A DNA stretch of 64,000 nucleotides from Pseudomonas fluorescens (lineage in GTDB: Bacteria > Pseudomonadota > Gammaproteobacteria > Pseudomonadales > Pseudomonadaceae): assembly GCF_900636825.1 (NCBI RefSeq), contig NZ_LR134318.1, positions 4,077,501 to 4,141,500 of the forward strand, given 5' to 3'. A program made the translations under genes and the position numbers. The notes below the pieces were generated by a model. That model was given only the letters and a program-made list of their open reading frames with translations. It was not told the DNA's origin and searched no databases. Positions 10,236-47,946 of the stretch are shown here, piece after piece. Every line of letters starts with the position of its first letter. Position 1 is the first letter of the stretch.

Positions 10236-10807
10236 GTACACCCACCACCCAGATCGTGCGCCCGGCGGGTGCCGGCCACGAAACCCTGAACGTGCTGTTG
10301 TTATGCCTGTTGATCCTGGCGATTGCCGGCTCGGTCGTCGCGTGGCGCGGGGTTTCCCATGAACCGGAGCCCGTCGCCAGCAACCAGTACGACGCCCGCC
10401 GCGACCTGAGCGCCGCTGAACAGGGCATCTATGCCGACCTGCGGGTGACTCTCGACGAGATCCGCTTGCTTCGCGAAGAGCAAAAGGCCCTGCCGACTCC
10501 GCAAGCCCTGGCCGACGAAGGTTTCGCGCCGTTTGCCCAGGATGCCAGCTCGGTCAGCCGTGGCGGCCATGCGTGGCAGATGCTTTCCGACAGCACCTAT
10601 TTCGGTCGCAGCGCCACACCTGATGTGGCCGGTTCGTTCCTGATGCGCGTCGGTACTGACCTCAACGCTGCGCCTGACATTTGGCTGAACCGGGGCGCCG
10701 ATCTGGTGCCGGTTAAGGATCTGTCTGACGCCGCGCTGTCCGCTGCCGGCTGGAAACAGATCGTCGCGCAATTCGATGCCGGGGTTACCCGCGAACATCG
10801 CCATTGA
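10232..10807 (+). CDS. fpvK: FpvK-like single-pass membrane protein
   Basis: A 191-residue protein with a single hydrophobic helix near residues 17-36 (NVLLLCLLILAIAGSVVAW) and a periplasmic domain of about 150 residues. Start overlaps the fpvJ stop (ATGA). It matches fpvK by order and topology and resembles small membrane proteins found next to zinc/manganese-type ABC transporters in pseudomonads. It may anchor the FpvG/H/J assembly; that is inference. Confidence 0.72.
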   Translation: MSTPTTQIVRPAGAGHETLNVLLLCLLILAIAGSVVAWRGVSHEPEPVASNQYDARRDLSAAEQGIYADLRVTLDEIRLLREEQKALPTPQALADEGFAPFAQDASSVSRGGHAWQMLSDSTYFGRSATPDVAGSFLMRVGTDLNAAPDIWLNRGADLVPVKDLSDAALSAAGWKQIVAQFDAGVTREHRH

Positions 10808-10842
10808 ATCCTCGCCTTCATTCGAGAGAAGACCGCTTGCCC

Positions 10843-11772
10843 ATGTCCATTTCATCGCCTCGCCGTCCGTTGTTACGTGTTTTTCTGGCGTGCCTTTGCG
10901 CCTGTCTGCTGAGCCCGCTGGCCAGCGCCGAGCAGGCCAAACGCCTGCGCATCGGCATCACCCTGCACCCGTATTACAGCTACGTGGCGAACATCGTCGG
11001 CGACGAGGCCGAGGTCGTGCCGCTGATTCCCGCCGGTTTCAATCCGCATGCCTATGAGCCTCGTGCCGAAGACATCAAACGTATCAGTGGCCTGGACGTG
11101 ATCGTGCTCAACGGTGTCGGTCATGACGATTTCGCCGACCGGATGATCGCCGCCAGCGAAACTCCAGACATCAAGACCATCGAAGCCAACGAGAACGTGC
11201 CCTTGCTCGCTGCCACCGGCGTCGCCGCGCGCGGGGCCGGCAAAGTGGTCAACCCGCACACGTTCCTCTCGATCAGCGCCTCCATCGCCCAGGTCAACAA
11301 CATCGCCCGCGAACTGGGCAAACTCGACCCGGACAATGCCAAGACCTATACGCAGAACGCCCGCGCCTATGGCAAACGCCTGCGGCAGATGCGTGCCGAC
11401 GCGCTCGCCAAGCTGACCCAGGCGCCGAACGCGGAACTGCGCGTCGCCACGGTGCACGCGGCTTATGACTATCTGCTGCGGGAGTTCGGTCTGGAAGTGA
11501 CAGCGGTGGTCGAACCGGCCCACGGTATCGAGCCAAGCCCGAGCCAATTGAAGAAGACCATCGACCAGCTGCGCGAACTCGATGTGAAAGTGATTTTCTC
11601 GGAAATGGATTTCCCTTCCAGTTACGTTGACACCATTCAACGTGAGTCCGGCGTGAAACTTTATCCGCTGTCGCATATTTCCTACGGCGAATACACCGCC
11701 GACAAATACGAAAAGGAAATGACCGGCAACCTCAACACCGTGGTCCGCGCGATCCAGGAGTCGGGGGCATGA
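10843..11772 (+). CDS. fpvC: Metal ABC transporter substrate-binding protein, FpvC-type
   Basis: A 309-residue ZnuA/PsaA-family (cluster A-I) periplasmic protein with a signal peptide (about residues 1-28). Metal-site signatures are intact: NPHAYEP, NPHTFLS, HAAYDYL and SEMDFP, so three histidines and an acidic residue are available. In P. aeruginosa FpvC is the periplasmic metal-binding member that accepts iron released from ferripyoverdine. The ATG at 10843 was preferred to an upstream ATG at 10804 because it puts the signal peptide at the N-terminus. It overlaps fpvD by four bases. Confidence 0.88.
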   Translation: MSISSPRRPLLRVFLACLCACLLSPLASAEQAKRLRIGITLHPYYSYVANIVGDEAEVVPLIPAGFNPHAYEPRAEDIKRISGLDVIVLNGVGHDDFADRMIAASETPDIKTIEANENVPLLAATGVAARGAGKVVNPHTFLSISASIAQVNNIARELGKLDPDNAKTYTQNARAYGKRLRQMRADALAKLTQAPNAELRVATVHAAYDYLLREFGLEVTAVVEPAHGIEPSPSQLKKTIDQLRELDVKVIFSEMDFPSSYVDTIQRESGVKLYPLSHISYGEYTADKYEKEMTGNLNTVVRAIQESGA

Positions 11773-12617
11773 CTTCAAAAGAAACCCTCCTCGTCGATAG
11801 CAGTGAAAACCCTGTGGGAGCGAGCTTGCTCGCGAAGGCGCCGGATCCGGCCACATCTTTGTTGAATGACCCAGCGCATTTGCGAGCAAGCTCGCGCCCA
11901 CAGGGATTGGGGCCGACGCTGGATTTTGCGCAGATTGGTCTGACGTTGGGGCGCACGACGATTCTCGACAAGGTGACTTTCCAGGTGCAGTCCGGCACGG
12001 TGCATGCCTTGGTCGGCCCTAACGGTGGCGGCAAAAGCTCGCTGATCAAGACCTTGCTCGGGCAGATGCCCCATCAGGGTCAGCTCAGCCTGCAATGGCC
12101 CGGCGAACCCGGCGTCATCGGTTACGTGCCCCAGGCGCTGGAATTCGATCGCGGCCTGCCGATGACGGTCGACGATTTCATGGCTGCAATGTGTCAGCGC
12201 CGCCCGGCGTTTCTCGGTTTGAGCAAGCGTTACGCCGCCGCCATCGGCGAGGCGCTGGAACGCGTCGGCATGCAGGACAAGCGCAAACGGCGGATGGGCG
12301 CGCTGTCTGGTGGCGAACGGCAGCGAGTGCTGCTCGCACAGGGCCTGATCCCGGCGCCGCAACTGCTGGTGCTGGATGAACCGATGTCAGCGCTCGACGA
12401 AGCGGGGATCCAAGTGTTTGAACGGCTGCTCAATGACTGGCGCGCAGCGGGCATCACCGTGCTGTGGATCGAGCACGATCTGGAAGCCGTCGGGCGCTTG
12501 GCCAATCGGGTGACCGGCCTCAACCGCCGCGTACTGTTCGACGCCACACCCCAGCAGGCACTCACCCCGGAACGCCTGCTGAGCCTGTTTTCCACCCATC
12601 CACGGAGCGCTGTCTGA
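11769..12617 (+). CDS. fpvD: ABC transporter ATP-binding protein, FpvD-type, with a REP-encoded N-terminal insert
   Basis: A 282-residue ABC ATPase for the metal transporter. The ATPase core begins near residue 49 (LDFAQIGLTLGRTTILDKV) and has Walker A GPNGGGKSS, signature LSGGERQR and Walker B LLVLDEP. The start codon overlaps the fpvC stop (ATGA). Residues about 14-46 are encoded by a 96-bp REP pair and include PVGASLLAKA, a peptide typical of translated Pseudomonas REP sequence. The insert is 32 codons and keeps the frame. An internal start after the insert is possible but I see no strong ribosome site there. Family and role are secure; the N-terminus is the uncertain part. Confidence 0.85.
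   Translation: MTSKETLLVDSSENPVGASLLAKAPDPATSLLNDPAHLRASSRPQGLGPTLDFAQIGLTLGRTTILDKVTFQVQSGTVHALVGPNGGGKSSLIKTLLGQMPHQGQLSLQWPGEPGVIGYVPQALEFDRGLPMTVDDFMAAMCQRRPAFLGLSKRYAAAIGEALERVGMQDKRKRRMGALSGGERQRVLLAQGLIPAPQLLVLDEPMSALDEAGIQVFERLLNDWRAAGITVLWIEHDLEAVGRLANRVTGLNRRVLFDATPQQALTPERLLSLFSTHPRSAV
11810..11905. repeat. REP pair (BIME-like) inside the fpvD coding sequence
   Basis: CCCTGTGGGAGCGAGCTTGC at the left and its near-complement GCAAGCTCGCGCCCACAGGG at the right bracket a 96-bp element with two facing REP units. REP elements are nearly always intergenic; this one lies within the first 50 codons of an ABC ATPase gene in frame. Confidence 0.9.
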
Positions 12618-13516
12618 TGAGTTACGAAGCATTTCGTCTGATGGTTCAGGGCTGGGCCTCCTCGGGTTATCTGCCGGAAGCGCTGGCCTACGGTTTTGTC
12701 GTCAATGCGTTGCTCGCCGGGCTATTGATCGGCCCGGTGCTTGGCGGTCTGGGCACGCTGGTGGTGGTCAAGCGCTTCGCATTTTTTTCCGAAGCGGTCG
12801 GCCATGCCGCGCTGACCGGTGTGGCCATCGGCATTCTGCTTGGCGAGCCTTACACCGGCCCTTACGGCAGCCTGTTCGGCTACTGCCTGCTGTTCGGCAT
12901 CCTGCTCAATTACCTGCGCAACCGCACCGGCCTGGCGCCGGATACGTTGATCGGGGTATTTCTCTCGGTATCGCTGGCGCTGGGGGCGAGCCTGCTGCTG
13001 ATCCTCGCTGGCAAAATCAACGTGCACATCCTCGAAAACGTGTTATTCGGTTCGGTACTCACGGTCAATGGCAATGATCTGGCGGTGCTGGCTATCGTCG
13101 GGTCTCTGGTCATGGCCCTGGCCCTGCCGCTGTACAACCGCATCATGCTAGCCAGTTTCAACCCGCAACTGGCGGCGGTGCGCGGCGTGGCGGTGAAAAC
13201 GCTGGATTATCTGTTCGTGATCCTGGTGACACTGATCACCGTGGCGGCGGTGAAAGTCATCGGTGCGATTCTGGTCGGTGCGTTGCTGGTGATCCCGGCC
13301 GCCGCGGCACGCTTGCTCAGCCAGTCGCTCAAGGGCTTTTTCTGGTGTTCGGTATTGATCGCCACCGTCAGCACCTTGTGCGGGATTCTCGCGCCGATTG
13401 TGTTCGACCTGCCGATTCCGTCGGGCGCGGCAATCATTCTGGTCGCCGGCATTGCCTTCGCCCTCGCCGCCGTCGCGCGCGGTGTCGTCCCCAGCCTCAA
13501 AGGGAACCTTGGATAA
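12617..13516 (+). CDS. fpvE: Metal ABC transporter permease, FpvE-type
   Basis: A 299-residue polytopic ABC-3 family permease with about eight to nine hydrophobic segments, starting MSYEAFRLMVQGW; the ATG overlaps the fpvD stop. Motifs typical of ZnuB/MntB are visible (KRFAFFSEAVGHAALTGVA near residue 55 and the conserved cytoplasmic loop near NPQLAAVRGV). With FpvD it would move iron delivered by FpvC across the inner membrane. The next gene starts directly at its stop codon. Confidence 0.88.
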   Translation: MSYEAFRLMVQGWASSGYLPEALAYGFVVNALLAGLLIGPVLGGLGTLVVVKRFAFFSEAVGHAALTGVAIGILLGEPYTGPYGSLFGYCLLFGILLNYLRNRTGLAPDTLIGVFLSVSLALGASLLLILAGKINVHILENVLFGSVLTVNGNDLAVLAIVGSLVMALALPLYNRIMLASFNPQLAAVRGVAVKTLDYLFVILVTLITVAAVKVIGAILVGALLVIPAAAARLLSQSLKGFFWCSVLIATVSTLCGILAPIVFDLPIPSGAAIILVAGIAFALAAVARGVVPSLKGNLG

Positions 13517-47864: not shown

Positions 47865-47871
47865 AAGCTTC

Positions 47872-47946
47872 GCTAGCAGGGCTAGCTCCCACAAGGAATT
47901 TGCGTCGCTCACAAACCTGTGGGAGTGAGCCTGCTCGCGAAGAGGC
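47872..47946. repeat. REP pair between atuE and atuF
   Basis: GCAGGGCTAGCTCCCACA and TGTGGGAGTGAGCCTGCTCG form facing REP units of the GTGGGAGCGAGC family also found in fpvD. It lies in the 117-bp gap within the operon, where it may reduce or shape atuF transcript levels. Confidence 0.88.

Follow-up and report, generated by a model that had tools for sequence, protein, structure and literature searches.

The fpvD gene of Pseudomonas fluorescens, which encodes an ABC transporter ATPase, carries a REPIN, a pair of facing REP palindromes, within its first codons. We propose that this element is translated in frame, that its arms are rewritten from the host's own REP pool, and that only the in-frame outcomes survive, a reading to which we give a probability of roughly 80%. 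REP palindromes are small, mobile and normally intergenic.

The DNA analysed, called the window here, is a stretch of 64,000 nucleotides from contig NZ_LR134318.1 (positions 4,077,501 to 4,141,500 of the forward strand). All genes discussed at the fpvD locus lie on the plus strand. The fpvD ORF (11769..12617, 282 aa) follows fpvC (10804..11772, start putative), coding for a periplasmic metal-binding protein, and precedes the permease gene fpvE (12617..13516), the ATG of which overlaps the fpvD stop. The TGA of fpvC and the ATG of fpvD overlap as ATGA in the window, just as the sequence-only reading had described, and an AGGAG Shine-Dalgarno sequence (11756..11760) is positioned 8 nt 5' of this ATG within the last fpvC codons. 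The names fpvC, fpvD and fpvE are those we take to apply from operon gene order. Among the NCBIfam equivalogs listed, neither FpvD nor FpvC reaches a cut-off; the nearest for FpvD is AztA (152.7 bits against a cut-off of 220), and the nearest for FpvC is AztC, also below its cut-off. The Pfam ABC_tran domain covers FpvD residues 66-206, C-terminal to the REP-coded segment. The available part of PMC6954188 places fpvCDEF next to fpvGHJK.

The REPIN (11810..11905, plus strand, read in the fpvD frame) is 96 nt long, occupies fpvD codons 14-46 and consists of two REP units and a spacer. The 5' unit, GTGGGAGCGAGCTTGCTCGCGAAGGC (11814..11839, plus strand), is translated as (P)VGASLLAKA, and the inverted 3' unit (11876..11901, minus strand) has three changes relative to it. 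The inverted arms are 41 nt each (11807-11847 and 11868-11908) and 85% complementary, and the ORF crosses the pair without a break. The REP core has 319 matches at no more than 2 mismatches in the window's 6.03-Mb genome (G000), compared to 0 for the reversed control, and the core of the 5' unit is an exact match at G000 4089313-4089335. The predicted RNA fold of window positions 11740-11940 has a z-score of -5.33, and none of 200 shuffles reaches an equally good fold. A chance palindrome is ruled out by this fold and by the 319 versus 0 core matches. The facing REP pair that had been reported within codons 14-46 is therefore real. Close inverted REP units, high genomic copy number and a predicted hairpin are all found here, as in other REPINs; the extragenic location is not, and the fpvD copy is a family member by sequence in an unusual place.

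The insertion is shared among relatives of the window's strain. The 190 fpvC-fpvD loci gathered include 160 that are distinct by flanking sequence, with a full insert in 111, a remnant in 5, no insert in 43, and a run of Ns in 1 (L155, counted apart). In a tree built without the insert, with a midpoint root for drawing only and with L012 as a full row, every carrier and remnant falls inside one branch of 135 rows (SH-aLRT 98), and all 25 rows outside it are empty. Orthologues in distant pseudomonads that carry the same residues without REP symmetry, the observation named beforehand as refuting a REP origin, were not found among these 25 out-of-branch rows, all of which lack the segment. Of the 157 inner branches of the tree, 56 are weakly supported. 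Presence and absence require 13 changes, which calls for recombination or for multiple insertions. An insert-containing query gave 407 matches, the best 80 of which are all carriers, which is uninformative on frequency; among these 80 are P. koreensis, P. jessenii, P. lini, P. umsongensis, P. frederiksbergensis and P. migulae. An insert-free query, followed over 98 places in rank order, returned 61 loci with a full insert, 31 with none, 5 with a remnant and 1 with Ns, and 12 further loci from lower-ranked matches all lack the insert.

Comparison of carrier and empty alleles inside the branch shows that they differ in more than the element. The distance from the fpvD ATG to the GPNGGGKS motif is 246 nt in the window versus exactly 141 nt in 18/18 in-branch non-carriers, a net excess of 35 codons in the window; thus, the 96-nt size given for the block in the sequence-only reading stands, but its addition of exactly 32 codons does not. 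All 18 of these empty rows have Gln at codon 4, and Lys or Arg is found there in 106 of 111 carriers, or 111 of 116 when remnants are included. The expectation that strains with and without the insert would differ by exactly this block also fails, as insert length varies and the empty in-branch alleles belong to another 5' haplotype. Excision is an unlikely origin for these alleles, as the five remnants span 159-177 nt and all have Lys4. We read the carrier and empty alleles as either shuffled by recombination or retained since the insertion, which would most simply, though not solely, have been a single event.

Full inserts preserve the reading frame without exception in length. All 111 have lengths divisible by 3, the insert-bearing segments fall into 15 length classes from 222 to 276 nt, and the tree requires a minimum of 62 length changes; all but one (L012) are free of stops, and the 5' REP lies in one phase in 110/110 rows where it is found. 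The insert-free-query sample gives the same result (61/61 full inserts at 0 modulo 3). As a control, a REP-bearing intergenic site between enoyl-CoA hydratase and biotin carboxylase genes, near 47.9 kb in the window, was followed in 30 loci of carrier genomes. Its 27 REP-bearing regions include 7, 12 and 8 with lengths of 0, 1 and 2 modulo 3, respectively, which differs from the fpvD inserts with a Fisher p of 1.5e-18, calculated on rows that are not independent. The REP cluster at this site in the window (47866-47944) contains a GTG that forms a false upstream start of the biotin carboxylase ORF. Elsewhere in the window's genome, 21 of the 42 facing REPINs examined have a length of 0 modulo 3; therefore, a single insertion would often leave the frame intact, which a long run of changes would not. 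An in-frame insertion with a tail made of translated REP DNA, as the sequence-only reading proposed, is supported.

The position of the start signals is equally uniform. The ATGA overlap is present in 160/160 rows, with AGGAG exactly 8 nt 5' of the ATG in 159/160. Between the REPIN and the conserved TLGRT residues, 71 of 110 carriers contain no in-frame ATG, GTG or TTG, and 105 of 110 contain no ATG. A start-type codon, mostly TTG, is present past the REPIN in the other 39, among them the window, which has a TTG there (GGATTGGGGCCG); the rows that share such a codon at any single alignment column number about 16 at most. A GTG opens the 5' REP in 98/110 carriers; initiation there would still translate nearly the whole REPIN. 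The preserved frame and the nearly fixed Shine-Dalgarno sequence and ATG argue that the annotated start is most likely the one used and that the REPIN is translated as an N-terminal tail. This tail is probably disordered: residues 1-46 of an AlphaFold model of FpvD have pLDDT below 50 and no secondary structure, in a model that is poor overall (mean pLDDT 48, 30 sequences) and also below 50 in other parts. Two loci depart from the pattern. L012 (G034) has lost 1 nt and 2 nt within the REPIN relative to L002, in G runs, which creates an in-frame TGA, and in L018 (G046) a REP-internal deletion shifts the frame and brings in a stop. Unless translation reinitiates, FpvD would be lost in both. The G034 assembly is 95% complete, and the L012 frame break is possibly a sequencing error.

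Conservation of the REP arms is at the level of DNA rather than of protein. Across 15 arm codons, which we chose as the columns under the REP units (L012 is excluded from the codon and arm analyses), mean diversity at fourfold sites is 0.079, compared to 0.341 in the FpvD core (p 6.6e-6). Variation at codon positions 1, 2 and 3 is 0.35, 0.25 and 0.33 between the REPs, versus 0.06, 0.04 and 0.32 in the core. With their fourfold sites almost fixed, the arms must be constrained or renewed as DNA; the amino-acid sequence of the tail is under hardly any constraint.

The arms also reflect the REP population of the host genome. Arms were typed as GAGC or GGGC and compared to genome-wide REPs in 60 carrier genomes; 48/60 of the 5' arms and 52/60 of the 3' arms could be typed, and the rest were set aside. 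Among short forms of the 5' arm, the mean genomic GGGC share is 0.75 for 7 GGGC arms and 0.18 for 38 GAGC arms (p 4e-5); for the 3' arm, it is 0.78 for 11 GGGC arms and 0.15 for 33 GAGC arms (p 5e-6). With genomes assigned to a type at a cut of 0.5 in the tables and 0.3 in the pair test, phylogenetically independent pairs give 5.9 agreements and 0 disagreements of 8 for the 3' arm (median p 0.03), and 4.5 and 0.5 of 6 for the 5' arm (median p 0.22). With relatedness taken into account, the link between arm and host REP type is thus only weakly significant. A REP form that is 15 nt longer is found in the 5' arm in 8/110 rows (6 changes), in the 3' arm in 16/110 (16 changes), and in both arms in 1. 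That arm type tracks the host REP population points to concerted evolution, and the pattern favors arms that have been repeatedly overwritten from the host's REP pool.

These observations are consistent with the following scenario. A REPIN would have entered non-conserved N-terminal codons of fpvD most simply once, in the ancestor of a clade within the P. fluorescens group, and would since have been translated as a probably disordered tail that precedes the ATPase domain's first strand. The element would be held open and in frame by selection, since the ATG and Shine-Dalgarno sequence lie upstream in fpvC and no conserved start codon exists past the REPIN, and the amino acids of the tail themselves would be nearly free of constraint. 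The arms would stay REP-like through overwriting by host REPs, by gene conversion or RAYT-linked copying, and the only rewriting outcomes to survive would be those in frame.

Other explanations differ from this scenario at separate points. If FpvD began 3' of the REPIN, the element would simply be an untranslated leader. The available part of PMC3733652 treats most of the N-terminal REPs it describes from P. putida, C. koseri and S. maltophilia as possibly not coding, a false case exists in the window itself at 47919, where the GTG of a REP lengthens the biotin carboxylase ORF, and a start-type codon past the REPIN is present in 39 of the 110 carriers, the window included. However, a leader would be expected neither to keep frame in 111/111 inserts beside nearly fixed start signals, while the intergenic control is free in frame, nor to lack any start codon before TLGRT in 71 carriers and any ATG there in 105. 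We regard a downstream start, one of two alternatives raised in the sequence-only reading, as barely credible. It is also very improbable that the tail peptide is functional and selected as a protein. Although PVGASLLAKA is well conserved, the fourfold sites of the arms are as fixed as their other positions, the residues between the REPs show no codon-position bias, and changes in the arms track host REP type. "Domesticated", in the sense of having acquired a useful function, is a description that the data do not support.

The remaining alternatives concern how the element arrived and why it is kept. Several separate REPIN insertions into one hot spot, instead of one, would account for the 13 presence/absence changes on the tree, and a second site, in a DUF4381 gene, is likewise common to relatives at one position. 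The identical phase of the 5' REP in 110/110 rows argues against repeated insertion, as does the division between Lys/Arg4 in 111/116 and Gln4 in 18/18 rows, which fits one carrier allele plus allele exchange; we consider multiple insertions unlikely. More plausible, though still doubtful, is that the REPIN is kept as an RNA hairpin at the fpvC-fpvD junction, where it would shield the fpvC message from 3' exonucleases and raise FpvC over FpvDE. Without an intergenic gap, such a hairpin would have had to be read in frame, and this role is compatible with translation and in-frame rewriting of the element. The REPIN lies just past the stop codon of a gene for a binding protein within an ABC-transporter operon, its predicted hairpin is strong (the median MFE across 110 carriers is -61 kcal/mol), and in E. 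coli ABC operons the gene that is stabilized is that of the binding protein, a structure being located between malE and malF (PMC5927463, available part). Yet the element is dispensable, since 43/160 rows lack it and 5 retain a remnant; its arms switch form independently; and its hairpins are somewhat weaker than those of 42 facing REPINs elsewhere in the window's genome (median -61 vs -67, for segments bounded slightly differently). Concerted evolution also explains the conservation of the arms, and ribosomes translating FpvD would cross the hairpin. By analogy, an RNA role like that at malE-malF is possible for the fpvD REPIN. Slightly more speculative is the combined proposal that the 5' codons of fpvD permanently house a translated member of the REP pool, which has persisted across a large species clade, is rewritten in frame and doubles as the hairpin that sets binding protein against ATPase, a coding counterpart of malE-malF.

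A further in-frame REPIN is present mid-protein in a DUF4381 gene of the same genome (G000 3341355-3341951; L229:1206-1802). Conserved protein flanks it on both sides, and there is therefore no room for a wrong start. Searches of 28 genomes gave a full-length match to this gene in 16; among the matches listed, those from the other searches are short and mostly REP-like, and G109 is matched in two pieces. The insert in the 16 aligned genes is of VGASLLA type at a shared position in 13, of another REP-like type (VGxGLPxM) at that position in 2 and unrelated in 1, and G109 has none. In L280 (G265), the DUF4381 slot reads CRSCRRLRSF, which resembles a peptide beside the Y1_Tnp gene of L324 in the window's genome, as if another repeat family occupied the same seat.

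The 75 stretches around exact REP-core matches in this genome, among the matches listed, hold at least 81 REP clusters; 54 have some spanning open frame, and 21 hand-chosen frames were inspected. In a two-sided coding test, based on a codon model that was trained on 22 window ORFs and is blind to cases like fpvD, as it requires 20 codons to either side, the DUF4381 gene alone passed among the 81 other clusters examined from the matches listed. A Pfam search finds two Y1_Tnp genes in the window's genome, and no REP of the fpvD type flanks either in the 3.3-kb stretches read. In one of these stretches (L325, G000:C1:3460187-3460495 plus flanks), the Y1_Tnp (RAYT-like) gene is surrounded by repeated palindromes, GTGGGAGCTAGCCCTGCTAGC, of a REP type unlike that of fpvD.

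N-terminal REPs in Pseudomonas had been dismissed as likely annotation errors. Length modulo 3, together with an intergenic control, provides a clean evolutionary test that parts true coding REPs from false ones, and by such evidence the fpvD REPIN appears to be coding, long-lived and still turning over. The site in fpvD is fixed, orthologous and marked by the reading frame, and the turnover of a REP by other genomic copies can be followed there; this is relevant to the long-standing problem of what keeps REP families uniform. The tuning of an operon by a hairpin within coding sequence also becomes testable by synonymous recoding.

REPs proper inside genes are treated, in the literature searched, only by PMC3733652 (2013), the available part of which describes intragenic GTAG/CGTC REPs, single or as dimers, many of which code for 20-30 aa of the ORF product, N termini included. 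Those REPs and the fpvD REPIN are alike in being genic, some of the former also being N-terminal. However, the N-terminal cases of that study were left mostly as possibly non-coding, and the fpvD element would be coding by its cross-species frame and still turning over. We found no description of long in-frame persistence of a REP combined with ongoing rewriting; fpvD or the DUF4381 gene may figure in the supplementary gene list of PMC3733652. In P. fluorescens SBW25, as set out in the available part of PMC3116915 (2011), REPINs are inverted REP doublets with a spacer that form a hairpin, in a genome with over a thousand REPs; they are described there in extragenic space, unlike the REPIN inside fpvD. 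Rickettsia palindromic elements are likewise mobile palindromes fused in frame in conserved proteins, and one such enzyme is active (reviewed in PMC2229807), but they are a different element from the REPIN, and turnover that matches the genomic population is not mentioned for them in the available part of that source. The closest parallel to a possible RNA role is E. coli malE-malF, where the available part of PMC5927463 places an RNA structure just 3' of the binding-protein gene of an ABC operon, as at fpvD; the malE-malF structure is intergenic, whereas the predicted fpvD hairpin lies inside the next gene.
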